Origin: Alphaproteobacteria bacterium
Lineage (GTDB): Bacteria > Pseudomonadota > Alphaproteobacteria > Rhodospirillales > Magnetovibrionaceae
Assembly: GCA_015231605.1 (NCBI GenBank)
Contig: JADGBG010000020.1
Span: forward strand, 1-35,652
Direction: 5' to 3'
DNA length: 35,652 nucleotides
Translations under genes and position numbers: made by a program
Part shown: positions 2,788-25,600 of the stretch, piece by piece
How positions within the stretch are numbered: the first letter of the stretch is position 1
How the letters are laid out: the number at the start of each line of letters is the position of its first letter
The notes under the pieces: generated by a model
The model's input: the letters and a program-made list of their open reading frames with translations, nothing else
What the model was told of the DNA's origin: nothing
The model's database searches: none

Positions 2788-4518
2788 TCAGCCCTGGGAA
2801 TGGGGCGCGATGACGAAGCTGTTCTTGCCGGCGCCCTTGACGTCGTACATGGCGTGATCCGCCTGCTTCAGGATGGCTTGCGCACCTTCGCCGTGGTCCG
2901 GATAGCCGGCTATGCCGATGCTGGCGCCGATGTGGCCGGCATGACCGTCCAGATCGAAGGGGCGCGATAGCGCCACGAGGATCTTTTCCGCCACCGGCCG
3001 GGTGTTGTTCAGGTCTTCGAGGTCCACCAGCAAGATGACGAACTCGTCCCCGCCGAGACGCGCCACCGTGTCGTTTTCGCGCACGCAGGCGCGGAGCCTG
3101 TCGGCCACGCCCTTGAGCAGGATGTCGCCCTTGTCGTGGCCCAGGGTGTCGTTGACCGCCTTGAACCCGTCGAGATCGATGAACAGGACCGCGCATTTTC
3201 GGGCATGCCGGCGGGCGTTGTGGATCGCGCCTTCGATGCGGTCCATCAGCAGAATCCGGTTGGGCAGGCCGGTGAGTGTGTCGTGGCTGGCCATGTGGCG
3301 CATCTGGTCCTCGGCGCGGCGGCGTTCCTCGACCTCGTCCTGAAGTTCGCGGGTGCGTTGTTTGACCTTGGCTTCCAGGGTTTCGTTATGCCTGCGCAGC
3401 GCGTCGCTGGATTGGCGGAGCGCGCCCTGCATCATGTTGAACCGATTGGCTAAAATTCCGGTTTCGTCGTTGGAGGGCTCCTCCACCACCGAGAACTCGC
3501 CCCTTTCGGCAATGCGCATGACCTGGCGGGTGAGTTCCGCGATGGGACGGGTCAGGCCGTGGGAAACCGCCACGCCCACCAGGGCCGTCACCGCCGTCAC
3601 CAGGGCCGCCAGCCACACGAAGGTGCGTTGGATGTCGGCTTCGGTTTCGTCGAGGCGCTGGCGCGGCACGGCCAGGAACAGGGAGCCCGGCGTGATCCCG
3701 TCCATCAGCTCCAACGGATTGGCGGCGACGAAGTAGCGCTGGCCGAGAAAACGGGCTTCGATGATTTCATCGGGTTGATCCAGCAGCATCTTGTATTCCA
3801 GGTACGGCAGCGGCAAGTCGCCGATGGGCGTCCCCTCGGCGTCCTTAAGCGTCGATCCCATGACCGCGCGATCGCGCACCACGGCCAGTTCCATGGCGGT
3901 GTTGCGCTTGATGTTTTGCACGAACGCGTTGTCGATGGGTTCGCCGATCAACAACGCGCCGACAATGGAGCCGTTGTCGCGGATCGGCCCCGCCGCGTAC
4001 AGCATGAAGCGGTTGAGTTCGTTGACCACCGCGACGCTGACCTCTCCGGCGTCCAAGGCTCTGCGGACGATCTCGACGTGGCCCATGTTGTCGCCGAAAT
4101 TGCCGGGACTGTGGAAGCGGTAGATCACCACGCCCTCCCGGTTGACCACCGTCGCGCCCTTGGACAGCGCGGTCGGCAGGTGTTCCGTGACATAAGTTTC
4201 CACGGGGGTGCGTCGACCGCCGCGCATGGCTTCGGCCAAACCGTGTTCTTGTTCATCGAGGATCAGGTGGCGCACCCAGTTGGTCCAGGCCTGGGCCTGG
4301 ACATTGAAGACGGTCTTGCTGAATTCCAAAGTGGATTGAAATTCCTGGCTGACCACACGGGTGAAGCCGGATTCTGCGATGCGCAGGCTGAAATAGGCGC
4401 TGACACCCATGGCCAGACACACCAGCAAGACCATGGCGCTCACGACCTTGAACTGCATGCGACGATAAAACGGCAGCTTGGCCGCATCCGACGGGATGGG
4501 AAGGGGGCTGTCCGTCAC
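2788..4518 (-). CDS. Membrane diguanylate cyclase: periplasmic sensor, HAMP, GGDEF
   Basis: Makes c-di-GMP from two GTP at the inner membrane. Of 576 residues, a first membrane helix lies at about 23-45, a large periplasmic sensor region (cache-like, alpha helix then mixed alpha/beta) at about 46-298, a second helix at about 299-319, HAMP at about 320-370, a charged coiled coil at about 370-405, and GGDEF at about 405-570. The active site is intact: GGDEF at 489-493, with the product-inhibition I-site R480-E-N-D483 five residues upstream. The GTG start overlaps the stop of the upstream multiheme cytochrome by four bases (GTGA), so the two are translationally coupled. No EAL domain follows, so this should be a synthase only. 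The sensor ligand cannot be told from sequence; the coupling suggests a redox or respiratory signal. Confidence 0.9.
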   Translation of the reverse strand: MTDSPLPIPSDAAKLPFYRRMQFKVVSAMVLLVCLAMGVSAYFSLRIAESGFTRVVSQEFQSTLEFSKTVFNVQAQAWTNWVRHLILDEQEHGLAEAMRGGRRTPVETYVTEHLPTALSKGATVVNREGVVIYRFHSPGNFGDNMGHVEIVRRALDAGEVSVAVVNELNRFMLYAAGPIRDNGSIVGALLIGEPIDNAFVQNIKRNTAMELAVVRDRAVMGSTLKDAEGTPIGDLPLPYLEYKMLLDQPDEIIEARFLGQRYFVAANPLELMDGITPGSLFLAVPRQRLDETEADIQRTFVWLAALVTAVTALVGVAVSHGLTRPIAELTRQVMRIAERGEFSVVEEPSNDETGILANRFNMMQGALRQSSDALRRHNETLEAKVKQRTRELQDEVEERRRAEDQMRHMASHDTLTGLPNRILLMDRIEGAIHNARRHARKCAVLFIDLDGFKAVNDTLGHDKGDILLKGVADRLRACVRENDTVARLGGDEFVILLVDLEDLNNTRPVAEKILVALSRPFDLDGHAGHIGASIGIAGYPDHGEGAQAILKQADHAMYDVKGAGKNSFVIAPHSQG

Positions 4519-6047
4519 GGCGCGTCCCGGGTCAGGTAATCAAGAACGTGGGCCTGGACGTCGGGTTCCAGCTTCACCTGGACGCCGTAATGGGTGTCCA
4601 GCGTGGACATCACGCGCCGCCAGGTTTCGACGGGTTGGGCCGCCTGGTCGAACACCCGGTGGCAACCGCCGCAGGCCTTCACCACCACTTCGTCGCCGAC
4701 CCGACCGGACCCGTAGAATTTGTCGAATTCCGCGATGGCCCAATCCAGCGGCTTGTCGGCGTGGCAGCCGCCGTTCTGGCACGAATTGGGCACGCCGTAA
4801 TCGCGCGTGGCCAGGGGCGGCACGATGCGGAATGCATGGCTGCGGATGGGGAACGCGCCGCCGGACTCCACGATGTAAGGCATGTGGCAATCGGGGCAGC
4901 CCTTGGACGACGGCGGCCCGGGATAGTGTTGCTGGCCGCGCGCGCCAGCCTTGAACGAGATGCTGTCCACGTGACAGATGCCGCACTTTTGTTGAGGCGG
5001 GGTGGTGTTGCCCCATTTGGCGTGATCGAAGCCGTGGGGTTCGTGGCAGACCGGGCAGGTGAGCCCCTGGGTCGCGGTGTTCAGGGTGGGCTTTTCGCCG
5101 TCGTTGGCGAGGATGTGGTCGGCGCTGTGGCACGACAGGCAGGCGTCCGTCAGCTTGCCCCGGTCCGGCGTGTGGCGCTCTCTCAACAATTCCAGCGCGC
5201 GGCCGTGCTTGGACGCCGAAAAGTCGGCGAATTCCTGGTGCCGGTTCTTCGACAGGCCGATTCCCCACCAGAATTGTTCTTTCTTGTCACGGTCCTGGGT
5301 CATGGGCTGGAAGGTCTCGCCCGGCATGTCTCCCGGCGTGACGTTGAGCGGAAAGTCGAAGGTGGTCTGGATGTGCTCGTCGTCCCTTTGCTGGGTGCCG
5401 CGGGTGTGGCACTGCCCGCACACCGCCGAATTGACGGACGAAATGATGCCGCTGTCCCATTCGGCGGCGTTTTTCTCGTGACAAATGGCGCATTGCGGGT
5501 CCGCACTGCCGCGTGAACGCGCCACGTGGGTGCTGCCGGGACCGTGGCAGGCCTCGCATCCGATGCCGAATTCGGAAAACGTGTAGGTTTCCGGATTGAA
5601 CCCCGTGGTGTGGCAGCCGTTGCACTTCACCGACAGCGGCGTATCCTTCCAGTCCTTGACCTTGTAGGGCACCCATTTCTGCGTCGTGATCATCCATTTT
5701 GCCGTCAACGGATAGTATTCGCCGTCGATCATCCGGGCGTAGACCTGTTCCCACTTGTTGCCGATCACGAACTGGATGTCGTCCTTGGAAAACTTGACGA
5801 TTTCCGGGTCGGCCTTGGACCAGTCGGCGACAATTTCGATGGGGCCGTCGACCGGGTGGAACATTTTCGGGTGCAATGTATTGTCGCGCCAGCTCTCGTA
5901 ATGGGACTGATGGCAATCCTGGCAGCTTTCCGACGTCACGTGATGGGGGCGGGAGGAGAAGTCGCGATGGGTGGTGAAGCCCCAAATCGCGGCGGCGACC
6001 GCGCCGACAACGGCCAACCCCGTCAAGGCCTTGAACATTTTCATCAT
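4515..6047 (-). CDS. Undecaheme-type c-type cytochrome, membrane-anchored or periplasmic
   Basis: A 510-residue electron-transfer or multiheme oxidoreductase protein facing the periplasm. After a signal/anchor segment at about residues 5-23 there are ten CXXCH heme sites, starting at residues 42, 142, 164, 186, 210, 303, 331, 355, 384 and 459, plus an unusual CX4CH at 423-429. The block with NGCHTTGFNP followed by CEACHGPGSTH is common in multiheme cytochromes of the cytochrome c554/hydroxylamine-oxidoreductase superfamily. The C-terminal CGGCH followed by WRRVM..LDTHYG resembles the small diheme DHC domain. The ATG at 6047 is chosen because GGAG lies 11 bases upstream; a GTG at 6092 has no ribosome site. 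It is coupled to the downstream diguanylate cyclase. No known substrate family is recognised. Confidence 0.85.
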   Translation of the reverse strand: MMKMFKALTGLAVVGAVAAAIWGFTTHRDFSSRPHHVTSESCQDCHQSHYESWRDNTLHPKMFHPVDGPIEIVADWSKADPEIVKFSKDDIQFVIGNKWEQVYARMIDGEYYPLTAKWMITTQKWVPYKVKDWKDTPLSVKCNGCHTTGFNPETYTFSEFGIGCEACHGPGSTHVARSRGSADPQCAICHEKNAAEWDSGIISSVNSAVCGQCHTRGTQQRDDEHIQTTFDFPLNVTPGDMPGETFQPMTQDRDKKEQFWWGIGLSKNRHQEFADFSASKHGRALELLRERHTPDRGKLTDACLSCHSADHILANDGEKPTLNTATQGLTCPVCHEPHGFDHAKWGNTTPPQQKCGICHVDSISFKAGARGQQHYPGPPSSKGCPDCHMPYIVESGGAFPIRSHAFRIVPPLATRDYGVPNSCQNGGCHADKPLDWAIAEFDKFYGSGRVGDEVVVKACGGCHRVFDQAAQPVETWRRVMSTLDTHYGVQVKLEPDVQAHVLDYLTRDAP

Positions 6048-6083
6048 CGCCAACACAGCTCCACAGCCAATCCGCAATGGCGA

Positions 6084-6112
6084 ATTATACACTGAAAACA
6101 GCGATTAAATAC
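6084..6112 (-). promoter_or_regulatory. Possible sigma-70-like promoter of the cytochrome-GGDEF pair
   Basis: A perfect TATAAT lies at 6084-6089 on the minus strand, 37 bases upstream of the cytochrome ATG. The -35 position with a 17-base spacer reads GTATTT, a poor match. The surrounding DNA is AT-rich compared with the genes on either side. Inference from motif only. Confidence 0.35.
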
Positions 6113-6148: not shown

Positions 6149-7471
6149 TCAGACGGCCTTGGAATGGCGGCCTTCGCCGGTGCCGAGATAGGCGTCGAAG
6201 GCGCTGGCCACCAGGCGTATGAAGGGGCGCCCTGCTTCCGAGACGGTGACGCGTCCGCCGTCGACGGTGCAGATGCCGTCCTCGACCAGCGGTTTCAGCT
6301 TTTCCAGGTCCCGGGCGAAATGGGTGGGGTCCACCTCGGCGGTCAGGTTGCACATGATGTCCTCGATCACCGCGCGGCGCAGCGTGTCCTCGTCGCTGAG
6401 CGCGATGCCCTTGGCGGTGGCGGGGCGTCCGGCGAAAACGGCTTCGCGGTAGCCCTTCAATGCGCGTTCGTTCTGCACGTAGCCCTGCGGCAGGTAGCCG
6501 ATGGCCGAGGCCCCGAAGCCCAGCATGGCCGGCGCGGTGTCGGTGGTGTAGCCCTGGAAGTTGCGGTGCAGCTCGCCGGTTTCCACGGCATTGGCCATGG
6601 GGTCGTCGGGATGTGCAAAGTGGTCGAAGCCGATCTGCACATAGCCCAGGTGTTTGAGCCGTTCCACGGCCAGCGAGAATTGTTCCCAGCGTTCCGCCGC
6701 GCCGGGCAGATCCTCTTCGCGGATCATCTTCTGGTGCGACTGCATCCACGGCACGTGGGCGTAGCCGAACAGCGCCAGGCGATTGGGCCGCAAATCCACG
6801 GTCATGTCGATCATGGATTCGATTTCCGCCGTTGTCTGTAGCGGCAGGCCGTACATCAGATCCATGTTGATGCGCGAGATGTTGTGCGCGCGCAGCCATT
6901 CGATGACCTGCTTGGTGGTTTCGTAGGGCTGGATGCGGTGGATGGCTTCCTGGACCTTGGGCTCGTACGACTGCACGCCGATGGAGGCGCGGTTGACCCC
7001 GGCGCGCTCCAGGTCGCGGACGTAGTCCTCGGTCGCGGTGCGGGGGTCCAGCTCCACGGCGATTTCGGCGTCGGAGGCCACGTCGAAACGCGCGCGCAGC
7101 TTGTCCAGCGTCGCCATCCAGTCTTCGCCCTTGAGCATGGTCGGCGAGCCGCCGCCCCAGTGCAGGTGCTTGGCCGTCATGCGGGCCGGCAGGGCGTCGG
7201 CGATCAGGTCGACCTCGGCCAGGACCGCGTCCAGGTATTCCTTCACCGGTTCGTAACGCTTCACGATCTTGGTGTAGCAGCCGCAGAACCAACACATTTC
7301 GTCGCAAAACGGGATGTGGAAGTACAGCGACAAGTTGGTCGCGGGGTCCAGTTCGGAAAGCCACTGGCGATACACCGCGCCGTCCACGCCGTCATGAAAA
7401 TGCGGCGCGGTGGGATAGCTGGTGTAGCGCGGGACGCGCAGGTCGTACTTGTTGATCAGGTCGTCGGTCAT
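6149..7471 (-). CDS. hemN: Oxygen-independent coproporphyrinogen III oxidase (radical SAM)
   Basis: Converts coproporphyrinogen III to protoporphyrinogen IX without oxygen, in cytosolic heme synthesis. Of 440 residues (E. coli HemN has 457), the radical SAM cluster C56-X3-C60-X2-C63 followed by G-C65 is intact (FCDEMCWFCGC). The N terminus NKYDLRVPRYTSYPTAPHF, the GGGSPT glycine motif and the C-terminal HemN domain are all present, and the YTSYPT and CGC features separate it from HemW. The ATG at 7469-7471 is chosen because true HemN proteins begin near this residue and GGAAAG lies about 10 bases upstream; an open extension to 7540 lacks family similarity. It lies upstream of the multiheme cytochrome on the same strand, consistent with heme demand under low oxygen. 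Confidence 0.93.
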   Translation of the reverse strand: MTDDLINKYDLRVPRYTSYPTAPHFHDGVDGAVYRQWLSELDPATNLSLYFHIPFCDEMCWFCGCYTKIVKRYEPVKEYLDAVLAEVDLIADALPARMTAKHLHWGGGSPTMLKGEDWMATLDKLRARFDVASDAEIAVELDPRTATEDYVRDLERAGVNRASIGVQSYEPKVQEAIHRIQPYETTKQVIEWLRAHNISRINMDLMYGLPLQTTAEIESMIDMTVDLRPNRLALFGYAHVPWMQSHQKMIREEDLPGAAERWEQFSLAVERLKHLGYVQIGFDHFAHPDDPMANAVETGELHRNFQGYTTDTAPAMLGFGASAIGYLPQGYVQNERALKGYREAVFAGRPATAKGIALSDEDTLRRAVIEDIMCNLTAEVDPTHFARDLEKLKPLVEDGICTVDGGRVTVSEAGRPFIRLVASAFDAYLGTGEGRHSKAV

Positions 7472-7560
7472 CGGGGCGGGACTTTCCGTGTCGGGGAATC
7501 GGATTTCCCATAACGTAAGGCCGCCGGGAAACCAAGGCAAGCGCGGCGGATCAATCCGTC

Positions 7561-7594: not shown

Positions 7595-8020
7595 TCAATC
7601 CGTGCTGTTGACCGGCGTGCGCAGCGACGTGCTGAGCGGCACGTTGGTGAGGTCCACCAGCGGCATCATGTAGTCGAACAGATAGCTGGCGGAAACCGTC
7701 CGGTAGGACACGCCGCCCACCACGTCCGCCCCCGGTTCGTCGGCGGTGAAGGTGATGCCGTCGAACATGTTGCTGACCTGCTCCTGCGCGTAGGTTTCCA
7801 GGTCCGCCTGGGACACCTCGGGGTTGACCATGACGTACCGCGCCGTCTGTTCGACCCCGTATTGCATGATGTTGCGGACGTAAAACAGCCGTCCCAGATC
7901 GACGATGCCAAGGATGAAGATCAGGAAAATGGGCGCGACCAGGGCGAATTCCACCGCCACGGCGGCGCGCTCGCCGCATGCGCCGCGAAGGAAGGTCCGG
8001 AGGGTGCGCGTCTGTCTCAT
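7595..8020 (-). CDS. TadE-like minor pseudopilin
   Basis: A 141-residue pilus assembly protein of the TadE/TadG-like family, inserted in the inner membrane and thought to be processed by the prepilin peptidase and to take part in Flp pilus assembly. The N-terminal segment has the family signature AAVAVEFALVAPIFLIFILGIVDLGR, a pilin-like hydrophobic helix with the conserved Glu at +5. This is followed by a periplasmic region of about 100 residues. The ATG at 8018-8020 is preferred because it lies 13 bases after the preceding gene's stop; an ATG at 8056 would overlap that gene and has no ribosome site. It is the last gene of the minus-strand minor-pilin cluster. Confidence 0.85.
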   Translation of the reverse strand: MRQTRTLRTFLRGACGERAAVAVEFALVAPIFLIFILGIVDLGRLFYVRNIMQYGVEQTARYVMVNPEVSQADLETYAQEQVSNMFDGITFTADEPGADVVGGVSYRTVSASYLFDYMMPLVDLTNVPLSTSLRTPVNSTD

Positions 8021-8033
8021 GGCGGGGCGGGCC

Positions 8034-8498
8034 TCATTGGGTGCGAATGGTCGCATCGGCGGTGATGTCGATGGTTCCGGGGTAGAAAATCCAGGTGTGC
8101 GTGTAGACGGCCGAGATGGCGGTGTAGGTTTGGGTCCGCCCAGTGGTGCCGCCGCCGCACGTATCCGTTCCGCACGCGAACGTCGCGCCGTCGGAACATC
8201 CGCACAGGTTCGCGTCCACCGTCACCACGACCCCGACAAGATCCACGGCGTCCTCGACGACCCCCTGGACCAGGGCCTCGGTGGCGTTTTCGCTGTCGAC
8301 CAGGGCGTATTGCGCCCCCGCACGCACCGCGCCGGTGATTTCCATCTTGTGGAACATATAGATGGCGATGTCGACGATGTTGAGCAGGATGATCGACAGG
8401 AAGGTCGAAATCATCGCGAACTCGATGGCGCTGGCCCCGGATTCCGATGTGCGGAACCGCGCCGTCAGACGCCGCAAGGGAAGGGGGGGAAACGCCAT
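8034..8498 (-). CDS. TadE/TadF-like minor pseudopilin
   Basis: A 154-residue second minor pseudopilin of the Flp pilus. The N terminus has a basic leader and then ESGASAIEFAM, matching the prepilin peptidase site (cut after Gly, Glu at +5), followed by a hydrophobic helix of about 25 residues. The periplasmic part contains a Cys-rich stretch (four Cys within about 18 residues, around CGCSDGATFACGTDTCGGG) that could form disulphides or a metal site; this is unusual for the family and its purpose is unknown. The ATG at 8496-8498 has GGAG 8 bases upstream and follows the TadG-like stop by 5 bases. TadE and TadF cannot be told apart confidently. Confidence 0.82.
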   Translation of the reverse strand: MAFPPLPLRRLTARFRTSESGASAIEFAMISTFLSIILLNIVDIAIYMFHKMEITGAVRAGAQYALVDSENATEALVQGVVEDAVDLVGVVVTVDANLCGCSDGATFACGTDTCGGGTTGRTQTYTAISAVYTHTWIFYPGTIDITADATIRTQ

Positions 8499-8503
8499 CG
8501 CCG

Positions 8504-9805
8504 CTACTCCACCAAACCGGGTCTCGCCCCGTACGTCACGGGATTGCCGCCATAGATATCGCAGTTGTTTTCGATGTCCGCGTCGCCGTTGAAACTGATG
8601 GTCTGCGCCACCAGCATCAGACACCCGTTGCTGTCGGTGTCGTTGCCGCCGGTGAACGAGATGTCGTTGTTGGGCAGGTAGATCGCGCCGCCCAACTCCA
8701 GCTCGGAACCGCCGTTGAAGGTGGCGTCCATGCTGGGGCTGGAGCCTCCGTCGCGGTCCTGATAGACCAGCACGCCCTCATAGTCTTCCCCGGCCAGCGG
8801 GGCTGTGAGTTCGATGGTCGCGCCGCCGGTGAAGTTGACCGTGCCCGCGTTGCCGCCGTCGTAATTGGTGAGGATGATGGTGACGCCGTCGCCCGTAACC
8901 GATCCGCCGCCGTTCACCGTGAAGTCGCCATCGTCCATGATGTAGGTGCCGGGATCCATGCTCACGGTGGCGCCGGCGTTGATGGTGATGCCGCCGCAGT
9001 ATATGCCGGGCGACAACAGGGCGCCGTTGGCGGGTTGGTAGGCTTGGTTGCCGGGCGGGTCATGGTCGCATCCCGTATCCGCTGGCACGGTGAGATCTGC
9101 GTAAGGATCCGTCACCGTGGAGGCGTTGGATGCCGCCGAGCCGCAATTCGTGGTGATGTTTTCCTCGCCATCGATGCCGCCCGCGGCCCAGATGCATTCC
9201 ACGTCCAGGCTGCCGTTCTGGGCGTTGACCGATTTGGTGCCATGGTTGGAGTTGGACACCAGCGCGCAGCCGTCCATGCTGACGTCGGTGCCCGCGCCGT
9301 TGGTGTAGATGGCGTTCATGGCGCTGGTCGAAAGGGCCAGAACGCAGGCTTCCTGGTCCCCCGACGTGCCGGCCACGGCGCGCGCCGTGGTGACGGGGGA
9401 GATCGCGTAGAAGACTTGGCTCAGCACCGTTTCCAACTGGCGGGTGATGACGATCTCGGTGTAGGCGTCGTTCCCGGAATAGGCGCCGGATGTGGGCGTG
9501 CCGACGTAGGTCATGGCGTCCGTCGCCGCGTCGAAGCCGTTGACGTCGGCTTCCAGTTGCGCTGCGGCCTCGTATTCGGCCGCATCCGCGCCGTAGGCCC
9601 GTTCGATCGCGGCGGCGACGGCGGCGGAATCGGCGATGGTCTGCAATTCGCGGCGTTCCTTGAACCAGATGCCGGCTTCCACCCCCAGGCCGATGATGCC
9701 GAACAACACCGGCAGCATCAGCGCGAACATGACGGCGATGGCGCCGCCTTCTTCACGGGCGAAGCGTCTCAGCAGCTTCCGGTGTGTTGCGCGAACATGG
9801 GGCAC
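8504..9805 (-). CDS. TadG-like pilus assembly protein with beta-rich, helix-like C terminus
   Basis: A 433-residue protein. The N terminus (EEGGAIAVMFALMLPVLFGIIGLGVEAG, residues 18-45) is the TadE/G pilin-like anchor, followed by the ERRELQTIADSAAVAAA region common to TadG proteins. In place of a von Willebrand A domain, the C-terminal part (about 270-433) is rich in Gly, Asp, Asn, Thr and short hydrophobic strands with repeated FNGG or FTGG turns, like a right-handed beta-helix or polymer-forming fold. Several Cys are scattered through the middle. The GTG at 9803-9805 is chosen because AGAGGAT lies 9 bases upstream and similarity begins here, although the frame stays open to 10039. It is the first gene of the minus-strand cluster and is divergent from the TadD-like gene. 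Confidence 0.82.
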   Translation of the reverse strand: MPHVRATHRKLLRRFAREEGGAIAVMFALMLPVLFGIIGLGVEAGIWFKERRELQTIADSAAVAAAIERAYGADAAEYEAAAQLEADVNGFDAATDAMTYVGTPTSGAYSGNDAYTEIVITRQLETVLSQVFYAISPVTTARAVAGTSGDQEACVLALSTSAMNAIYTNGAGTDVSMDGCALVSNSNHGTKSVNAQNGSLDVECIWAAGGIDGEENITTNCGSAASNASTVTDPYADLTVPADTGCDHDPPGNQAYQPANGALLSPGIYCGGITINAGATVSMDPGTYIMDDGDFTVNGGGSVTGDGVTIILTNYDGGNAGTVNFTGGATIELTAPLAGEDYEGVLVYQDRDGGSSPSMDATFNGGSELELGGAIYLPNNDISFTGGNDTDSNGCLMLVAQTISFNGDADIENNCDIYGGNPVTYGARPGLVE

Positions 9806-9929
9806 GTGGGTTATATCCTCTTTATCCTTCAAGGCGTTCGCCTGGAATTGTGACGGAGGAGAGAGCAAAGGGCAAGCCGTGCGACGTTTCCGCCCCATAT
9901 CAGTTTCTCGAAAATCCCTGGAAAAGGCA

Positions 9930-9943
9930 GTGACGGGCGTCAC
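9930..9943. promoter_or_regulatory. Candidate Crp-type operator GTGA-N6-TCAC between tadG-like and tadD-like genes
   Basis: GTGACGGGCGTCAC is a perfect palindrome apart from its centre and contains the GTGA-N6-TCAC core bound by Crp-type regulators. It lies 125 bases upstream of the TadG-like start and 90 bases upstream of the TadD-like start, in the shared divergent region. A Crp-family gene is encoded 1.4 kb away. Confidence 0.4.
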
Positions 9944-10032
9944 GGGCCTGGAAGACGCGCGCGCGGTATGCTCATGTGGGCTGTACGCCGAGGGCAATTG
10001 CGCTACACTCGCGCCAGGGAGGATTCCGTCAC

Positions 10033-10818
10033 GTGACATTCGCCGCGACCTTGGTTGGACTATTGCGCGCCGCCGTCTTTGGTGGGGCGCTCGTGGCGTT
10101 GGCGGCGTGTCAGACCACGTCGGCCACGGGGCGCGGCAAGGCGTCGGGCGCGGACAATCTCCAGGAAGCCTTGCTCCAATCGGCCAATGAGGCCGTGATC
10201 GTCAACAATTACGCCGCCGCCGCGGGGGCCTATGCGCGCCTGGTCGAACAGCGTCCGGACGACCCGGCGGTCATGGCGGGGTTCATCCGCTACATGCGCT
10301 ACGCGGATCGCGCGGGCGAGGTGGTCGCCTTCGTCGACGCCCAGGGCGCGGACGCAATCGCCGATCCCGGCGTGCGGTTCGAATACGCCAAGGCCATGCT
10401 GTCGGCCGGCCGGGCGAGCGAGGCGCTGTCCAGGCTGCGCGAACTGATGGATGTCGCGGCCGAGGATTGGCGCCTGCATTCCGCGTTGGGAGTGGCGCAC
10501 GACGCGCTGGGCGACTTCGAACGCGCCGGGCAGGCCTACGTCCAGGCGCTTCGCCTGTCGCCGGACAATGCGGTGGTGTTGAACAACCTCGCCATGTCGC
10601 AGGCCATGGCGGGCGACATCGACGCCGCCGTGGCGTCCCTGGAAAAGGCCGCCGCTCTCGATCGAAAGCGCGCCAACATTCGTCAGAATTTGGCGTTGAT
10701 GTACGCCATCAAGGGGGATGTGGAACGCGCCCGCACCTTGTCCGCCATGGACCTGGATGCCGGTGAGGTGGATGCCAACCTCTCCTTCTATCGCCGTTTC
10801 GAAGGGGCGCGGCCATGA
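10033..10818 (+). CDS. tadD: TadD-like TPR lipoprotein of the Flp pilus
   Basis: A 261-residue outer-membrane or periplasmic lipoprotein that, by family, assists secretin assembly or localisation in the tad system. A signal peptide ends in the lipobox LAAC, with the lipidated Cys at about residue 25. Three or more tetratricopeptide repeats follow, for example the ALGVAHDALGDFERAGQAYVQALRLSPDN unit and the next NLAMSQAMAGDIDAAVASLEKAAALD. The GTG at 10033 is chosen because AGGGAGGA lies about 9 bases upstream and the signal peptide begins properly there. Its stop overlaps the ATG of the PilZ gene by four bases (ATGA). TPR proteins are diverse; the assignment to TadD rests on lipoprotein plus TPR plus position in the tad locus. 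Confidence 0.82.
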   Translation: MTFAATLVGLLRAAVFGGALVALAACQTTSATGRGKASGADNLQEALLQSANEAVIVNNYAAAAGAYARLVEQRPDDPAVMAGFIRYMRYADRAGEVVAFVDAQGADAIADPGVRFEYAKAMLSAGRASEALSRLRELMDVAAEDWRLHSALGVAHDALGDFERAGQAYVQALRLSPDNAVVLNNLAMSQAMAGDIDAAVASLEKAAALDRKRANIRQNLALMYAIKGDVERARTLSAMDLDAGEVDANLSFYRRFEGARP

Positions 10819-11240
10819 CCGACGAACCCCCGCAAACCGACGTTCACGGCGTTCCCCGGGAACTGGTCAAGCGCCGCGCCGCGGTGCGGCTGACCACCGT
10901 TTACGGCGGGCGGGTGATCCAGTTCGGCAAGGCGTATCCGTGCGTGGTTTCCGACGTATCGGCCGGCGGCGCGAAGGTCCGCCTCAAGGATCCCCGCGAT
11001 TTTTCCAAGTTGACCAAGAGCCAACCGGTGGAGCTGGTGTTCGAGCGGTTGAGCGACTACAAGTCGCTCGGCGCGGAGATCGCCTGGACCAAGCCCGACG
11101 AGGATGTCGTGGGCCTGACCTTCACGGATCCGGAACTGCGCCGCAGGGTGGTGATCAAGAAATTAATGCCGAACCGCTGGCGCATCGCCACGGAACACGT
11201 GCAAGCCGAAGCCGAGGGCCTTGAGGGGGACGGCGCATAG
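10815..11240 (+). CDS. PilZ-domain c-di-GMP-binding protein
   Basis: A 141-residue cytosolic single-domain PilZ protein that should bind c-di-GMP. Both binding motifs are intact: R21-x-x-x-R25 (in KRRAAVR) and D47-x-S49-x-x-G52 (in SDVSAGG). The C-terminal strand region (LGAEIAWTKPDEDVVGLTFTDPE) is the usual PilZ barrel ending. It overlaps the TadD-like gene by four bases, so translation is coupled, which ties a c-di-GMP effector to pilus assembly. Its partner is not known. Nearby GGDEF proteins (2788-4518 and 25601-27283) could supply the signal. Confidence 0.88.
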   Translation: MTDEPPQTDVHGVPRELVKRRAAVRLTTVYGGRVIQFGKAYPCVVSDVSAGGAKVRLKDPRDFSKLTKSQPVELVFERLSDYKSLGAEIAWTKPDEDVVGLTFTDPELRRRVVIKKLMPNRWRIATEHVQAEAEGLEGDGA

Positions 11241-11252
11241 ATGCCGCGTCGG

Positions 11253-11288
11253 CCGTTACAAACGGTTGTGATGGAAAGTTTTTTTTGA
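11253..11288 (+). terminator. Weak stem followed by T-run after the PilZ gene
   Basis: The 5-bp stem CCGTT/AACGG (11253-11257 with 11261-11265, loop ACA) is followed about 13 bases later by a run of eight T residues at 11279-11286. The distance is longer than usual for an intrinsic terminator. The end of the T-run also overlaps TTGACA at 11285-11290, which could be a -35 box for the downstream regulator, although I see no good -10. Confidence 0.3.
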
Positions 11289-11327
11289 CAAGATAACGGC
11301 GAGTTCAGAGCGCGGAACGGGTCATTC

Positions 11328-12035
11328 ATGAACGATTCGGACACCAACCACGTCGATCCCATGGATCGCAAGCTGACGGGAATCGGCATCTTGTCCGAAG
11401 CCCCGCCCAGCGTCGTGCGGGAACTGGAAGGGGTGTGTTCCTGGCAACGTTTCGCGGCCCAGGACGTGATCGTGGACCGGGAAGACGAATCCACGGACGT
11501 CTATTTCATCGTCAAAGGCAGCGTGAAGGTCATGGACTTCCTGGGGGACGACCAGGAAATCACCCTGGCGGAATTGAGCGCGGGCAGCAGTTTCGGCGAA
11601 ATGTCGGCGATCGATTCCGCCAAGCGTTCGGCGCGCGTCTCGTCCATGGGGGACACCATCGTCGCGTCCATGCCCGGGCGGGCGTTTCGCACGCTGCTGA
11701 TGGAATGCCCGGGGATCTCGCTGATGTTGCTCAAGCGGTTCGCGGGCCTGATCCGCACGCTGAACAACCGCGTCACCTCGCTCAGCACGTTGAGCCCGCA
11801 TCAGCGCGTTTATTATGAGTTGCTGCGCATGTCCGAACCCAACCCCCAAGGCGACGGCACGTGGTTGATCCATTATCTGCCCAAGCATGAGGAAATCGCG
11901 AGTTGGAGCGGCACGTCCCGCGAGGATGTCGCCATGGCGATCGGTCATCTGGCGCGGGAAGGGATCGTCGGGCGGAAACACAAGTCTCTGATTATCAAGG
12001 ACCATAGCCGGCTGCAGATGCTGGTCAGCCTGTGA
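11328..12035 (+). CDS. Crp/Fnr-family transcriptional regulator
   Basis: A 235-residue cytosolic regulator with an N-terminal cyclic-nucleotide-binding barrel (about 20-130), a dimer helix (about 131-155) and a C-terminal winged helix (about 156-228). The phosphate-binding cassette FGE91MSAID..R100SARV keeps the Glu and Arg-Ser that contact cAMP in CRP, so cyclic nucleotide binding is plausible. The FNR iron-sulphur Cys set is absent; only two scattered Cys remain. The recognition helix starts SRE (R198, E199), as in CRP, where these contact the GTGA half-site; the third contact Arg is replaced by Met. The ATG at 11328 is the first plausible start. Position between PilZ/TadD and the Flp pilin gene suggests control of pilus genes. 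Confidence 0.88.
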   Translation: MNDSDTNHVDPMDRKLTGIGILSEAPPSVVRELEGVCSWQRFAAQDVIVDREDESTDVYFIVKGSVKVMDFLGDDQEITLAELSAGSSFGEMSAIDSAKRSARVSSMGDTIVASMPGRAFRTLLMECPGISLMLLKRFAGLIRTLNNRVTSLSTLSPHQRVYYELLRMSEPNPQGDGTWLIHYLPKHEEIASWSGTSREDVAMAIGHLAREGIVGRKHKSLIIKDHSRLQMLVSL

Positions 12036-12286
12036 CGGGCATCATTCCCGGGCAACCGGTTTCGCATTATCCTGTCCTTGAAAAGTATGAATGTCCCAAT
12101 TGCACATTCGCAATGCACTGAAACGGTCAACCCATCGAGGTGGAAAAAATAAGGGGTTGGTTTGTAAGGGGAAATGTTGTTATGCCCCCTTGACTTCCCT
12201 GAATCCCTGGGCCAATCTATTTGCACAGGATTGGAGAGTCCGGTCGAATTTTTTCTGCCTATGAGCAAAAACTAGGAGTTGTGATA
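12036..12286 (+). promoter_or_regulatory. AT-rich control region upstream of the Flp pilin gene
   Basis: A 251-base gap of lower GC than its neighbours. It holds a perfect inverted repeat ATTGC-N6-GCAAT at 12099-12114, two direct TAAGGGG copies 15 bases apart (12150-12156, 12165-12171), and AAGGGG facing CCCCTT (12166-12171, 12186-12191). TTGACT at 12190-12195 could be a -35 box, but no clear -10 follows at 16-18 bases. The pilin start has a strong AGGAG at 12274-12278. Function as the pilin promoter is inferred from position. Confidence 0.45.
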
Positions 12287-12460
12287 ATGGCTAAGTTTTC
12301 GAACCTTCTGAACCGCTTCAAGAGTGATGAGTCCGGCGCGACCGCTATCGAATACGGCTTGATTGCCGCGTTGATCGCCGTCGTCATCATCACCGCCCTG
12401 ACCTTCATGGGCAGCAGCCTGGAAGCCAAGTTCGCCGAAGTGAACAGCGGTCTGAACTAA
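12287..12460 (+). CDS. flp: Flp/Fap-family type IVb pilin
   Basis: The major pilin of the tad/Flp pilus, a 57-residue prepilin. The basic leader MAKFSNLLNRFKSDESG is followed by the cleavage site G-ATAIEYGLIAALIA (Glu at +5 with an adjacent Tyr, the Flp signature), a single hydrophobic helix, and a short polar tail ending EVNSGLN. The inner-membrane prepilin peptidase CpaA encoded next should cut it. The ATG at 12287 has AGGAG 8 bases upstream; the frame opens further upstream but without pilin features. It is followed by a strong terminator at 12485-12515, which would let pilin mRNA exceed that of downstream cpaA. Ser/Thr residues after the helix (MGSS, NSG) could be glycosylated; this is inference. 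Confidence 0.95.
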   Translation: MAKFSNLLNRFKSDESGATAIEYGLIAALIAVVIITALTFMGSSLEAKFAEVNSGLN

Positions 12461-12484
12461 GACCTTGCGGCCCACCGGCATCTG

Positions 12485-12523
12485 GAGCCGCCCCGGACTC
12501 GTTCCGGGGCGGCTCTGTCTTTT
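12485..12523 (+). terminator. Strong intrinsic terminator after flp
   Basis: A perfect 13-bp GC-rich stem (12485-12497 paired with 12503-12515, loop CTCGT) is followed by TGTCTTTT. It sits between the pilin gene and cpaA, a position where partial termination commonly keeps pilin expression far above the downstream assembly genes. Confidence 0.88.
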
Positions 12524-12555
12524 GGGGGACTTGTCGAGGGTATGAGCGTGTCGCC

Positions 12556-13089
12556 ATGGCGTTGATGCAAACCGTGCTGATGGCCCTGTACCTGGGGCTG
12601 GTTCTGTATGGCGCGTGGTCGGATGCGCGGGCCTTGCGGATCCCCAATTGGATCTCCCTGACGATTTTGGCCGCATTTTTTCCCATGGCGGCTGTTTCGG
12701 GCCTTCCCCTGGCCGATGTCCCGTGGCATGTCGCGGCGGGATTGGTCACGTTGGTGGCCGGGTTCACGCTGTTCGCCTTCGGTTTGCTGGGCGGCGGCGA
12801 CGCCAAGTTGATGGCGGCATGCGCGCTGTGGATCGGTTGGCGGGATCTGTGGCTTTTTGTCTTGGCGGTCCTCCTGGTGGGGGGCGTTTTGTCGCTGCTG
12901 GTGATTTTGCTCCGCAAGGGTCTGGGCCTGTGGCCGCAATGGCTGGTGGCCCATGCATCGGGGCTGTTCACCCCCAACAAGGCGGTTCCCTATGGCATCG
13001 CCATCGCGGCGGGGGCGTTGCTGATGGCCCCGCGCATGGCGGTGTTTCCGGAAGGCTGGCGCATGATTTTCGCCGTCCTGGCCGGGTAG
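12556..13089 (+). CDS. cpaA: Prepilin peptidase CpaA/TadV (A24 aspartyl protease)
   Basis: Cuts the leader of Flp pilin and TadE/F-type pseudopilins at the inner membrane. Of 177 residues, about five to six hydrophobic segments are visible. Both catalytic aspartates are present: the first in WSDARALRIPN after the first helix, the second in LGGGDAKLM (the GxGD-type motif of A24 peptidases). It lacks the N-terminal methylation domain of longer PilD enzymes, as usual for TadV/CpaA. The ATG at 12556 is used; GAGGG lies about 16 bases upstream, which is rather far, and an ATG nine bases downstream is an alternative. The GT87-like gene follows after 8 bases. Confidence 0.9.
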   Translation: MALMQTVLMALYLGLVLYGAWSDARALRIPNWISLTILAAFFPMAAVSGLPLADVPWHVAAGLVTLVAGFTLFAFGLLGGGDAKLMAACALWIGWRDLWLFVLAVLLVGGVLSLLVILLRKGLGLWPQWLVAHASGLFTPNKAVPYGIAIAAGALLMAPRMAVFPEGWRMIFAVLAG

Positions 13090-13097
13090 GGGGGGCG

Positions 13098-14285
13098 ATG
13101 CGGTCGCTGCGAACGGGCGCGTGGCTGACGGCGGAACGCATCCGCGTTTATTCCTGGATATTGATTGTCCTCTGGACCCTGGGACTGGCTGGCGTGGTGG
13201 CGACGTCCAGCGATTACCGGGACGCCTTCGGGCGGCCTCTGGGCACGGATTTCGCCAATGTCTGGACGGCCGGGGCGATGGCGCTCGACGGCCATGCGGC
13301 CGCGGTCTGGGAACCCGAAGCCCATCATGCGGTGCAGCTGCGGGTCTTCGGTCCCGGCTCCCCGTTCTACGGCTGGCATTATCCGCCGTTTTTCCTGCTC
13401 GTGGCCTCGGTGTTGGCGCTGATGCCCTACGGCCTGGCCCTGGGCGTGTGGCTGGCGGGGACGATTCCCCTTTACCTGCGCGCCCTGAAGGGGATCGTTT
13501 CGGATCGTTTGGCGACGTTGGCCGCCGTGGCCTTTCCCGGCGTGGCGGTGACGGCCATTCATGGGCAGAACGGTTTTCTCACCACGGCGCTGTTCGCCGG
13601 CGCGCTCATGCAATTGGAGCGCCGCCCGTATGTCTCGGGCGTGCTGTTCGGTCTGATGGCGTACAAGCCGCAGTTCGGCCTGTTGGTGCCCGTGGCGTTG
13701 GCGGTATCGGGTCGATGGCGCGCGTTTGGCGCGGCGTCGCTGACCGTGGCGATGCTGGCGGGGATCAGCACCCTGGCTTTCGGCATGGAAATTTGGGACG
13801 CGTTCCTCGCCAGCACCCGGTTCACCCGCGACGTGGTGCTTGAGGCCGGGGCGTTGGCCTGGGAAAAGCAGCAAAGCGCCTTCGCGGCGGTGCGTCTGTG
13901 GGGCGGGACCGTGGAACTGGCCTATGGCGCCCAGGCGGCGATGGCGGTGTTTTCCGCCTTTGGCGTCGCGTGGCTGTGGCGCGGCCGGGCGGCGTTCGCC
14001 GTCAAGGCCGCGGGGCTCGTGTGTGGGGCCTTGCTGGCGACGCCCTATGTTCTCGACTACGACATGGTCATCGTCGCGCCGGCCATCGCCTGGATGGCGG
14101 CGCATGGGATGAAACACGGGTTTCTGGATTGGGAAAAGACCGTTCTGGCCCTGGCGTGGATCGCGCCGCTGGTGGCGCGGGCCTCGGCGCTGGCGATCAA
14201 CTTTCCGTTGGGTTTGATCGTCTTGACCGCCTTATTCCTTTTGATCCTTCGCCGTGCCTGGATGGATGGTCCTAATTTCCGCTGA
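13098..14285 (+). CDS. GT87-like (DUF2029) polytopic membrane glycosyltransferase
   Basis: A 395-residue integral membrane protein with about nine to ten hydrophobic helices. It resembles the DUF2029/GT87 family of GT-C enzymes, which in mycobacteria add mannose from polyprenyl-phosphate donors. Features seen: an early periplasmic loop with an acidic residue (GTDFANVWTAGAMALDG, equivalent to the catalytic D of GT87), FYGWHYPPFFLLVASVLALMPY, AIHGQNGFLTTALFAGAL, and LFGLMAYKPQFGLLVPVAL, all typical family blocks. The ATG at 13098 has a GGGGGG run just upstream. It lies 8 bases after cpaA and so is probably expressed with it, which suggests a role in modifying the pilus or a surface glycan. Its end overlaps the convergent tadC by 14 bases. 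Donor and acceptor are unknown. Confidence 0.78.
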   Translation: MRSLRTGAWLTAERIRVYSWILIVLWTLGLAGVVATSSDYRDAFGRPLGTDFANVWTAGAMALDGHAAAVWEPEAHHAVQLRVFGPGSPFYGWHYPPFFLLVASVLALMPYGLALGVWLAGTIPLYLRALKGIVSDRLATLAAVAFPGVAVTAIHGQNGFLTTALFAGALMQLERRPYVSGVLFGLMAYKPQFGLLVPVALAVSGRWRAFGAASLTVAMLAGISTLAFGMEIWDAFLASTRFTRDVVLEAGALAWEKQQSAFAAVRLWGGTVELAYGAQAAMAVFSAFGVAWLWRGRAAFAVKAAGLVCGALLATPYVLDYDMVIVAPAIAWMAAHGMKHGFLDWEKTVLALAWIAPLVARASALAINFPLGLIVLTALFLLILRRAWMDGPNFR

Positions 14286-15234
14286 TGCGCAAGGCCGCCG
14301 GTCCGATCACCACCATGAACAAGGGCGGCAGGAAAAACACGATCATCGGCACCGTCAGCTTGGCGGGCAGCGACGCGCCTTTCTTTTCCGCAATGGCCAT
14401 GCGTTCCTGGCGGCGTTCCTGGGACAGGACCTTGAGCGCCTTGCCCACGGGCGTGCCGTATTTTTCCGACTGCACCAAGGTGGTGGCCAGCGACTTGATG
14501 GCCGGAACGCCGGTGCGTTCGGCGAAATTCATATAAGCCTTGTGCCGGTCGCCCAGGTAGGCGAGCTCCGCCGACGTGATGCCGAATTCCTGGGCCAGGG
14601 ACGGCGACTTTTCGCCGATTTCGTCGGTCACGCGGTCGAACGCGCCTTCGATCGACAACCCCCCTTCGACGCAGATCACCATCAGGTCCAGGGCGTCGGC
14701 AAAACCGACCCCCAGTTCCTGCTGACGTTTTTGCGCGGTGTTGGTGATGACGATTTTGGGGAAATAGAAACCCAGAAACGCGCCCGCGCCCATGAACGCC
14801 ATTTTCACCGGGGTGGGGTAGGGGAAGTTCTTCCACATGGACAGGATCACCACGGCCGCCAAAAAAAAGCCGATGGCCGTGGCGATGCGCGCGAAGGTGA
14901 AGATGATCAACGCATTCTGATTGCGATAGCCGGCCTGGGCCAGGTTCGCCTTGAGCTCCTTGGACGATAGCGCCTCGTCGAGTTTCAGGGCGTGCAGCAC
15001 CTTTTTCATGACCTCCACGCGGGTCTGTTGCTGGCGCTGGCGGATCGCGGACCCCTTGGACCCCAGGGCTTCCATCTGGGCGCGCGACAACTGTTGGCGC
15101 GTGCTCGCCACCATCTTCACCCGTTTCGAGGTCTTTTCCCGAAACATGAAGGGCAGGGCCACGGCGGCGACGGACAGCAAGGCCGCGCCCACGGCCATCC
15201 AGACGATCAAGGTCGGTGTTTCGATGCCGAACAT
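14272..15234 (-). CDS. tadC: TadC, inner-membrane platform protein (T2SS F family)
   Basis: One of two polytopic platform proteins of the tad pilus machine, partnering TadB and the ATPase CpaF. Of 320 residues, membrane helices appear at the N terminus (about 10-32), in the middle (about 110-160) and at the C terminus (about 290-315). The T2SSF domain core is visible: ALDLMVICVEGGLSIEGAFDRV, followed by the LGDRHKAYMNFAERTGVPAIKSLATTLVQSEKYGTPVGKALKVLSQE block conserved in TadC. The ATG at 15232-15234 has a strong AGGAG 6 bases upstream. It is the last gene of the cpaB-to-tadC operon and converges with the GT87-like gene with 14 bases of overlap. Confidence 0.92.
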   Translation of the reverse strand: MFGIETPTLIVWMAVGAALLSVAAVALPFMFREKTSKRVKMVASTRQQLSRAQMEALGSKGSAIRQRQQQTRVEVMKKVLHALKLDEALSSKELKANLAQAGYRNQNALIIFTFARIATAIGFFLAAVVILSMWKNFPYPTPVKMAFMGAGAFLGFYFPKIVITNTAQKRQQELGVGFADALDLMVICVEGGLSIEGAFDRVTDEIGEKSPSLAQEFGITSAELAYLGDRHKAYMNFAERTGVPAIKSLATTLVQSEKYGTPVGKALKVLSQERRQERMAIAEKKGASLPAKLTVPMIVFFLPPLFMVVIGPAALRISGN

Positions 15235-15250
15235 ATCCGTCTCCTCACCC

Positions 15251-16231
15251 CTAGATATCGAAATTGATCATTTGGCCCATCACGAACACGCCCGCGCCCA
15301 TCATGCCCAGCCCGATGAACACCAGGTGGATGCCTTCGCCGAACAGCACCGCGACGTAGGCCGGGTTGACCAACGACAGCATCCCCAGCACCGCGAACGG
15401 AAGGGCGGCGATGATGGCGGCGGACGACTTGGCTTCAGAGCTCAGCGCCTGGATCTTGTCCTTCATGCGCTTGCGGTCGCGCAGCACTTCGGACAGGTTG
15501 TCGAGCGTGTCCGCCAGATTGCCGCCGGTCTGTTTCTGGATTTGCAGCACGATGGCGAAGAACTTGAATTCCGCCGTCGGGACGCGCTTCAACGCGCGCA
15601 CCAGAATTTCTTCGAGGGTCATGCCGAGTTTCTGGCCCTCGACGATCATGGTGAACTCCTCGCCCAACGGACCGTGGAATTCCCGCGAGATGATCGCCAG
15701 GCATTCGCCCACCGGCAGGCCGGAGCGGATGCCGCGCGTGATGACGTCGATGGCTTCGGCGAAGTGGCTGGTGAAATCGTTCTGACGGCTTTTCGCCATG
15801 CGCCCGAGAATGATCTTGGGCACGCCGAACGCGCCGACGACGAACGCCGCGGGAACCGCGGGCATGGGCGCGCCGGCGAAGAACGAGACCGCCGCCAGCA
15901 CCACGCCCAGGCCAAGGCTGCCGAGGATCAAGGCGCTGGGTTCGATCTGCAACCCGGCCTGAAGCAGGGCGGCTTCGATCTTTTCGCTCATACCCTCGTC
16001 TTTTTTCTCGGCGCCGATGCCCTTGAGCTTATCCTGGATGCGTTTCTGGCGGCGGCTTTCGGCCTTGGCGGAAACGCTGCCGCTGGATGCGACCGAACCG
16101 ATGGCGTCGATGCGCTTCTTCAGCCGCACTTTGGGTTTCATGCCCACCATGACCATGGAACCGATGCCGACGACCAGGATCAGAATGACGCCCGCGACCA
16201 GACCCAGCAGAACGGGAAGCGAGATGTCCAT
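15251..16231 (-). CDS. tadB: TadB, inner-membrane platform protein (T2SS F family)
   Basis: The second platform protein of the Flp pilus machine. Of 326 residues, an N-terminal helix lies at about 5-28, then a basic linker with AESRRQKRIQDKLKG, paired helices at about 100-130, the T2SSF cytoplasmic domain (AEAIDVITRGIRSGLPVGECLAIISREFHGPLGEEF, then ILVRALKRVPTAEFKFFAIVLQIQKQTGGNLADTLDNLSEVLRDR, both TadB hallmarks), and C-terminal helices at about 265-320. The ATG at 16229-16231 follows the CpaF stop by two bases, indicating a tight operon. TadC follows after 16 bases. Confidence 0.93.
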   Translation of the reverse strand: MDISLPVLLGLVAGVILILVVGIGSMVMVGMKPKVRLKKRIDAIGSVASSGSVSAKAESRRQKRIQDKLKGIGAEKKDEGMSEKIEAALLQAGLQIEPSALILGSLGLGVVLAAVSFFAGAPMPAVPAAFVVGAFGVPKIILGRMAKSRQNDFTSHFAEAIDVITRGIRSGLPVGECLAIISREFHGPLGEEFTMIVEGQKLGMTLEEILVRALKRVPTAEFKFFAIVLQIQKQTGGNLADTLDNLSEVLRDRKRMKDKIQALSSEAKSSAAIIAALPFAVLGMLSLVNPAYVAVLFGEGIHLVFIGLGMMGAGVFVMGQMINFDI

Positions 16232-16233
16232 GG

Positions 16234-17739: not shown

Positions 17740-17802
17740 TGTCTTCGAATGTTCCGTTGTTCTCGTGCCCTCGGCGCCGGATCAAGTCTACGCCAAGCGG
17801 GC

Positions 17803-19002: not shown

Positions 19003-19043
19003 GTCTGCCTCCCGATCTCAACCGTCCGCATCATGTGCCGTCC

Positions 19044-19667
19044 TCACTTCCCCGTGGTCGTCGTGGACGCCCCGCCGGCGCTGTACTTGCCGATGGCCGC
19101 GTCGGAACTGGCCGCGCCGCCGCCGCTCATCGGCTTGGCGCGCAGGAAGTCGTCTGGGTCCGCCGCCATCAAGGCCTTGTTGCGCTGGGTGGCGCAGCCG
19201 TAATTGCCGTGCGGCTTGTTGCCGGGGGTGAAGGTTGCGTTACCGGACCAGTCGCCGCATTCCGGGGCCACGGCCTTGGCGGCGGTGAAGCTCAACACCA
19301 CGATGGGGGTGGCGACGGTGGTCTCGCCGATCATCGTCAACTCGCTTTCGCGAAACCCGTTTTGCGTCAACACCGCGTACGCCGCCTCAAGATCTTGGGC
19401 TTCCACGGTCACCTGACCCTGGCCGCGCCCGGCGAAATCGCGCAGGAACGCGCGGAATCGCCCGGCGTCGGTCGTGTTCAGGCGCGTGCCCTCGTCGGGC
19501 AGTTCGATGGACAACGTCACCCGTTCCCGCGCCACCTGGATCGGGTGGGTTTCCCGGTAATCGTATCCTTCGGGCTTCGGCTCGGCGCATCCGGTCAACA
19601 GGGCGGCGCCAAGGCCCAGGACGGCCAGCGAACGGACGGGGGCGGTCAGGGGGCTGCGCTTCGTCAT
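19044..19667 (-). CDS. cpaD: CpaD-family pilus assembly lipoprotein
   Basis: An outer-membrane or periplasmic lipoprotein of the tad system, thought to assist the CpaC secretin. Of 207 residues, the signal peptide ends in the lipobox LLTGC. The mature protein has the CpaD signature YDYRETHPIQVARERVTLSIEL just after the lipidated Cys, and a C-terminal conserved block with PECGDWSGN followed by NYGCATQRNKALMAADPDDFLRAKP. The ATG at 19665-19667 has GGAG 9 bases upstream that overlaps the end of cpaC, so translation is linked. The tail is rich in Gly/Ser/Thr and likely disordered. Confidence 0.9.
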   Translation of the reverse strand: MTKRSPLTAPVRSLAVLGLGAALLTGCAEPKPEGYDYRETHPIQVARERVTLSIELPDEGTRLNTTDAGRFRAFLRDFAGRGQGQVTVEAQDLEAAYAVLTQNGFRESELTMIGETTVATPIVVLSFTAAKAVAPECGDWSGNATFTPGNKPHGNYGCATQRNKALMAADPDDFLRAKPMSGGGAASSDAAIGKYSAGGASTTTTGK

Positions 19668-19673
19668 GTCCGC

Positions 19674-25411: not shown

Positions 25412-25600
25412 ATTCCTGCGTATGCCATTTTTTCGATTGGTGCACATGGAAATTCTTGATAGCATTCAAAGAAAATAATCAAGGAACCGAGGGATGCGGA
25501 TGGCCCCGCGCGCAATCGTGGTCTTCCTTCATGTCGTTGAATGCGGTGTCGGTCCGGCGTGCGTCGATCGGGGCGGTGGCGTTCGAGTGTCGGTGGCGCG
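25412..25600 (+). promoter_or_regulatory. Non-coding gap before the PleD-like gene
   Basis: A 189-base gap, AT-rich in its first 80 bases. It holds an inverted repeat CTTGAT-N17-ATCAAG beginning near 25456, which could be an operator. No gene or clear promoter is seen. Confidence 0.3.

Follow-up and report, generated by a model that had tools for sequence, protein, structure and literature searches.

In Vibrio, the periplasmic protein LuxP carries its signal to LuxQ, a membrane sensor whose periplasmic domain is of a tandem PAS-like type, similar to double-Cache (PMC8534201; this and the other sources given here are cited from excerpts, to which the statements drawn from them are limited). 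LuxP binds autoinducer-2, whereas the partner in the system described here is a multiheme cytochrome. Its gene lies in a stretch of 35,652 nucleotides from an alphaproteobacterium of the Magnetovibrionaceae (assembly GCA_015231605.1, contig JADGBG010000020.1; hereafter the window), directly ahead of a gene for a predicted diguanylate cyclase, an enzyme of cyclic di-GMP (c-di-GMP) synthesis, with a double-Cache periplasmic sensor domain.

H-NOX proteins bind nitric oxide (NO) at one cytosolic heme. They are similar to the present case in that a stand-alone heme protein acts on a kinase or on a c-di-GMP enzyme, often encoded nearby (PMC8738867), whereas here 10 to 11 c-type hemes and a periplasmic domain are found. 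In Rhodobacter sphaeroides, electron flow through a cytochrome complex, the cbb3 oxidase, sets the activity of the membrane sensor kinase PrrB (PMC8399564). That system differs in using an oxidase complex and the transmembrane region of PrrB, without a c-di-GMP output. To our knowledge, PrrB has no Cache domain. A redox-sensitive periplasmic partner of a diguanylate cyclase is described for HmsC-HmsD, but in the excerpted account it works by disulfide reduction, without hemes (PMC8846402). In Geobacter, the electrode sensing network EsnABCD couples respiration on electrodes to the diguanylate cyclase EsnD, but its proteins are of the chemotaxis type; according to the excerpts EsnA lacks a putative periplasmic domain, and they mention no cytochrome partner (PMC5585712). 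In the sCache_heme proteins (DUF3365/Tll0287), a c-type heme is joined to Cache sensing, with roles in NO or redox responses (PMC12889525). Their heme, however, is inside the Cache domain, whereas here the hemes belong to a second protein; no CXXCH motif is found in the window sensor or in five others, which places them outside the sCache_heme family. A c-type heme hidden inside the sensor is ruled out on the same count (a heme motif in none of six examined).

A multiheme cytochrome-sensor pair of this kind was not found described in the open-licence papers searched, as far as their excerpts go. The word 'cytochrome' is absent from the main text of a broad review of c-di-GMP sensing (PMC8846402), and the excerpts of a Gallionellaceae pangenome paper report multiheme clusters and a single-motif PAS cyclase among the sensory proteins, not this pair. 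The parts are of known kinds; the stable union of cytochrome and sensor is the new element. Little is known about the periplasmic sensing of electron supply at oxic-anoxic boundaries or on minerals; the conserved pair is a defined two-gene system with which to ask if cells read electron flow as a signal in its own right, and in some of the genomes the pair would connect electron transfer in the periplasm with c-di-GMP.

A multiheme cytochrome and a sensor encoded as a conserved pair

An earlier note on this DNA had placed, at positions 2788-6047, an 11-heme cytochrome whose stop codon overlaps the GTG of a cyclase with a periplasmic sensor, a HAMP domain and an intact GGDEF with I-site. The coordinates and the overlap are right, and the parts of the cyclase were all recovered (dCache_3, HAMP, GGDEF and the motif REND). 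The features of the pair, all on the minus strand, are as follows.

4515..4518, minus: GTGA, the cytochrome TGA overlapping the cyclase GTG (read from the sequence)
4515-6092, minus: longest cytochrome frame, GTG start, 525 residues
4515..6047, minus: multiheme c-type cytochrome from the in-frame ATG at 6047, the likelier start, 510 residues
5973..6047, minus: hydrophobic N-terminal stretch, a Sec signal or membrane anchor (read from the sequence)
4710..5954, minus: decaheme core, nine CXXCH plus CX4CH, common to the 11 other genomes
4761..4781, minus: CX4CH motif CQNGGCH; CX4CH is present in 12 of 12 cytochromes
4518..4700, minus: C-terminal extension with the 11th heme (CGGCH)
2788..4518, minus: diguanylate cyclase with periplasmic sensor, GTG start, 576 residues
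3622..4377, minus: double-Cache periplasmic sensor domain, homologous in all 12 loci
3412..3567, minus: HAMP domain (PF00672, E 3.7e-9)
2821..3291, minus: GGDEF domain (PF00990, E 1.2e-48), with intact GGDEF and RxxD (REND)

In all 12 genomes of the cytochrome subfamily, the window included, the next same-strand gene after the cytochrome encodes a homologue of the sensor. The two genes overlap by 4 bp in six of the loci and are separated by 9-22 bp in the other six; from the overlap in the window we infer that cytochrome and cyclase are probably translationally coupled. The profiles used for sensor and cytochrome derive from alignments of six of these loci, so that L092-L097 are independent of them. 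The 12 carrier genomes form four groups and are not 12 independent cases, and several of the loci are on contigs of metagenome-assembled genomes. The earlier note had seen co-occurrence across genomes as a check on the pair, and here it held: the pair is not limited to this genome but is present in every genome in which this cytochrome subfamily was found (12 of 12), across the four groups. At the level of sequence, this confirms that the pair is conserved as a unit, with its gene order kept beyond chance.

The sensor domain is the constant partner and the output varies

By its GGDEF domain and intact signature, with the RxxD motif five residues ahead of it, the window protein is predicted to be a diguanylate cyclase. 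Its sensor matches the Pfam family dCache_3 (PF14827, E 9.4e-9) with 35.6 bits, against a cut-off of 25.7; that of L055 scores 47.7. In a predicted model of the window sensor (predicted local distance difference test, pLDDT, 76.6), residues 31-282 match double-Cache structures with Z values of about 15, as listed here with root-mean-square deviation (rmsd) and aligned positions.

PctA (5ltx): Z 15.4, rmsd 3.9, 224 aligned
DctB (3by9): Z 15.2, rmsd 3.3, 219 aligned
LuxQ (3c30): Z 14.2, rmsd 3.6, 202 aligned

A second LuxQ structure, 3c38, is also matched (Z 14.2). The model points to a double PAS-like periplasmic fold for the window sensor.

The domain that follows the sensor is not the same in all loci. 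Five of the sensors carry a GGDEF output (window, L059, L061, L092 and L093) and seven a histidine kinase (L055, L058, L060 and L094-L097), as assigned by Pfam for ten sensors and by sequence-motif match for L095 and L097; the L058 kinase is truncated at the contig end, where a PAS domain and the beginning of HisKA are visible. At least two changes of output have to be assumed on the cytochrome tree, one of them within the Sideroxydans-family group, where L058 has a histidine kinase and L059, L061, L092 and L093 a GGDEF domain. The sensor tree, which is less resolved, also has two output changes, one of them forced by well-supported branches. Despite different outputs, the window sensor is alignable with that of L055 (genome G133) over 368 positions (27% identity, E 4e-42) and with that of L060 (E 6e-42). 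Of the pair of a cytochrome and a c-di-GMP synthase proposed earlier, the conserved gene pair stands, but its constant partner is the double-Cache domain, since seven of 12 outputs are kinases; a system specific to c-di-GMP is thereby ruled out. As judged from these sequences, the cytochrome is tied to the sensor domain, not to c-di-GMP as such.

A sensor profile without HAMP found, at E <= 1e-8, two of 398 genomes of the phylum, the window's own (G000) and G133, the same two that have the full-length cytochrome; this profile was run on the phylum sample and on the 12 carriers only. In each of the 12 carriers the sensor domain is matched in a single place (E <= 0.001), the one at the cytochrome.

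Distribution of the cytochrome subfamily

A scan of genome contigs with the window cytochrome as a single sequence found no relative, while a two-row alignment found four loci with 49-53% identity: two from Nitrosomonadales, one from Sideroxydans and one from a symbiont of the tubeworm Escarpia laminata. In the phylum sample (which, for cytochrome and sensor, appears to be the same 398 genomes, the window's own included, with up to four and six first-look candidates, respectively, scored per genome), the cytochrome was matched in four genomes at E <= 1e-10; it is full-length in G000 and G133 only, and the matches in G189 and G292 are partial (E about 8e-12). The family of the Sideroxydans genome has the cytochrome in five of 158 genomes, namely three of the contig-scan loci plus G874 and G878. 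In the order of the symbiont, 17 of 210 genomes were matched at E <= 1e-40, five of them closely (E < 1e-220; G513 and G1034-G1037) and 12 distantly (E 1e-57 to 4e-42). A wider order search returned one of 300 genomes, the centre genome itself, and a search of the class of G133 one of 48, G133 itself. On these searches the subfamily is rare and patchy.

Among 120 genomes of the family and order of the window (its own included), 67 were matched by the cytochrome at E <= 0.001, mostly through the C-terminus, which resembles the diheme cytochrome c family DHC. Partial matches to the core were found in G093, G115, G047, G063, G098, G076, G084, G043 and G073. The best, in G093 (E 7e-29), is a different cytochrome with nine CXXCH, and a look for motifs found neither GGDEF nor HisKA in the listed open reading frames there. 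Among plasmid records, 85 matched the cytochrome, all with less than 60% identity, and none matched the sensor-plus-HAMP stretch.

The cytochrome and its distant relatives

The window cytochrome has 10 CXXCH motifs and one CX4CH, that is, 11 candidate heme sites by motif count. The earlier figure of 11 hemes stands in this sense for the window, but the 11th is not part of the shared design: among the 12 subfamily members the extension that holds it is found in the window only, and 11 hemes as a feature of the family are ruled out. The last 60 residues resemble one half of a diheme cytochrome c (PF09626 DHC, E 1.3e-10). The cytochrome does not belong to the DmsE family of decaheme proteins (TIGR03508; 32 bits against a cut-off of 192.2).

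The nearest solved structure, matched by phmmer along the heme core (residues 49-452, E 1.2e-30), is PDB 6i5b, an entry titled 'Uncharacterized protein', which we take to be OcwA of Thermincola potens. OcwA is a nonaheme terminal reductase of the cell surface, and the window protein differs from it in having an additional core heme, the DHC-like extension and a sensor partner. In OcwA, hemes 2 and 5 are open, under His-His pairs, and heme 9 is Met-ligated (PMC6703420). In the alignment with 6i5b the window keeps single His residues, 285 and 389, near these distal positions, and no pairs. Across the 12 cytochromes eight non-motif His residues are invariant (window positions 42, 74, 189, 285, 296, 353, 389 and 419); as this falls short of the 10 expected if every core heme had two invariant His, some hemes may be open or have another ligand.

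The 12 distant cytochromes, which come from a single order, that of G513, served as a control set. Each has eight CXXCH, to which L099, L100 and L105 add a CX4CH, still without a sensor; the sensor profile found nothing in the fetched stretches of any of the 12, in which the following genes are visible. The stretch of L101 does hold a GGDEF gene, but it is non-adjacent, with an opposite-strand open reading frame intervening. In eight of the 12 (L101-L104 and L106-L109), the genes after the cytochrome encode a triheme protein and one that resembles cytochrome b561 (the latter call Pfam-tested in four of the eight loci). In L098 the next gene encodes a NapC/NirT protein, and three of the 12 have neither arrangement. 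The order octaheme cytochrome, triheme protein and b561-like protein in eight genomes resembles a respiratory operon. The family looks like a respiratory lineage, one branch of which would have been recruited by the sensor, the direction of this change being drawn from an unrooted comparison.

A proposed mechanism and its alternatives

A reading that would join these results is that of a two-gene redox input module with exchangeable outputs, in which the cytochrome is a co-receptor of the double-Cache domain; we regard it as evenly balanced between right and wrong. It draws on the conserved gene order, the homologous sensors, their joint occurrence with the cytochrome where this was searched for, the differing outputs and the predicted double-Cache fold. 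The cytochrome, a periplasmic or membrane-anchored decaheme protein (undecaheme in the window) and a relative of OcwA and of the cytochrome c552/c554 kind, would act on the double-Cache domain, whose gene follows directly downstream. The state of the cytochrome, redox or substrate-bound, would be relayed to the sensor, most likely through contact in the periplasm, and from there through the second transmembrane helix and HAMP to the output domain, giving c-di-GMP synthesis in the window genome and phosphotransfer in others. Contact is the preferred route because no genome in which both were looked for showed a sensor orthologue without the cytochrome, and because partner-mediated sensing by a double-Cache-like domain is known from LuxPQ. 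The parts that we infer are that the proteins touch, that redox is the signal, in which direction the response goes and that surface attachment results; for the last, the Tad/Flp pilus genes and the PilZ protein in the window are circumstantial evidence. The fuller proposal, that a respiratory-type multiheme cytochrome was turned into a transmembrane receptor's sensing subunit in the periplasm, one that gauges redox state or electron flow, reports it by way of a double-Cache domain to exchangeable outputs and is kept by bacteria of redox boundaries (Sideroxydans relatives, the tubeworm symbiont), is put forward tentatively, as slightly more likely to fail than to hold.

Several observations weigh against the co-receptor reading. 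Of the ten sensors scanned, two pass the dCache_3 cut-off (window and L055), L061 reaches 24.6 bits and the other seven fall below the reporting limit; the double-Cache membership of those that fail is drawn from their homology to the window and L055 sensors. CXXCH is absent from all six sensors examined. The window sensor is 27-30% identical to the others, and its cytochrome 47-52%, and this fast divergence of the sensor gives no hint of a single, tightly conserved contact surface. With a loose limit, 62 of the 120 related genomes, among which the window's own is counted, contain weak matches to the sensor-plus-HAMP stretch (best E outside the window 1.6e-7), which mostly cover the HAMP end, some starting at residue 100-133, and on this account remote kin of the sensor domain without this cytochrome are likely. 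The carriers also include near-copies, with cytochromes 91-95% identical in L060 and L094-L097. Finally, the predicted model of the cytochrome, made from a five-row alignment, has a mean pLDDT of 35, with a helix at residues 2-32 of the N-terminus and the rest unusable.

A rather unlikely, though serious, alternative is that of an enzyme beside a sensor of its substrate or product, in which contact is unnecessary. The cytochrome would then be a periplasmic redox enzyme, as are relatives with activity on nitrite, hydroxylamine or other small molecules, and the double-Cache domain would bind the small molecule that it consumes or produces. OcwA, with its two open hemes, slowly reduces nitrite (PMC6703420), small molecules are frequent ligands of double-Cache domains (PctA and DctB are among the structural matches), and eight invariant His for 10 core hemes would make open hemes possible. 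A supply of electrons is also conceivable, given the b561 and diheme cytochrome c genes 3-5 kb downstream in L060 and the DHC-like half in the window. The His-His pairs at the open hemes of OcwA are, however, not kept as pairs in the window by the alignment with 6i5b, so that catalysis is not evident from the sequence, and no gene for an electron donor is immediately next to the pair, whereas eight of the 12 distant relatives have one there.

It is less probable still that the operon simply unites a respiratory enzyme with its own regulator, the cytochrome having no part in sensing and the sensor governing how the cytochrome is expressed or used, or attachment. Operon partners are often co-regulated, the seven histidine kinases could control transcription, and in the symbiont group respiratory-type genes are found a few kb away. 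Against this, the output is exchangeable, being a cyclase in five of 12, while the periplasmic domain stays with the cytochrome, and neither a response regulator nor any other gene common to the groups lies beside the pair. Chance adjacency of unrelated genes may be dismissed as extremely improbable: GGDEF domains are common in the window genome (30 matches, two in one frame), but the adjacency in 12 of 12 loci from four groups, the joint occurrence and the negative controls argue strongly against it.

Genes in the neighbourhood of the pair

In the compared stretches, no gene besides the pair is common to the four groups (more than 60 residues, E <= 1e-8; kinase domains and shadow frames aside). 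Directly upstream of the window cytochrome is hemN, which is not common to the other groups. The neighbouring genes referred to here are as follows.

Window, 6149-7540, minus: hemN, oxygen-independent coproporphyrinogen III oxidase (TIGR00538, 443.9 bits, cut-off 324.95)
L060, 15287-15922: cytochrome b561, 3-5 kb downstream of the sensor, past HDOD and DUF2202 genes
L060, 16417-16980: diheme cytochrome c (DHC), 3-5 kb downstream of the sensor
L094, 12247-12882: cytochrome b561, the same as in L060
L060, 4416-7853: upstream hybrid kinase
L094, 1791-5228: upstream hybrid kinase
L095, 1627-5490: upstream hybrid kinase
L096, 8432-12295: upstream hybrid kinase
L097, 1282-5145: upstream hybrid kinase

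Searched in a small database, the DHC-like tail of the window cytochrome matches the diheme protein of L060 (31% identity over 54 residues, E 4e-8) and no other open reading frame in the 11 loci. The tail is possibly a remnant of this electron partner, which would be fused to the cytochrome in the window lineage and a protein of its own in the symbiont group. Directly upstream of the cytochrome, the five loci of the symbiont order encode a second hybrid histidine kinase, its Pfam domains having been assigned for L060 only.

The window also contains, at 7595-22297, genes for Tad/Flp pilus assembly, an adhesive-pilus system near the cyclase; Pfam domains in seven open reading frames of this region are TadE-like, Tad, T2SSF, T2SSE ATPase, AAA_31, secretin and RcpC/CpaB. 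Within about 7 kb of the cytochrome are a PilZ-domain protein, of a c-di-GMP receptor family (10815-11240), and then a Crp/Fnr-type regulator (11328-12035). A response regulator with a GGDEF output, at 25541-27283, is a second predicted cyclase in the window.

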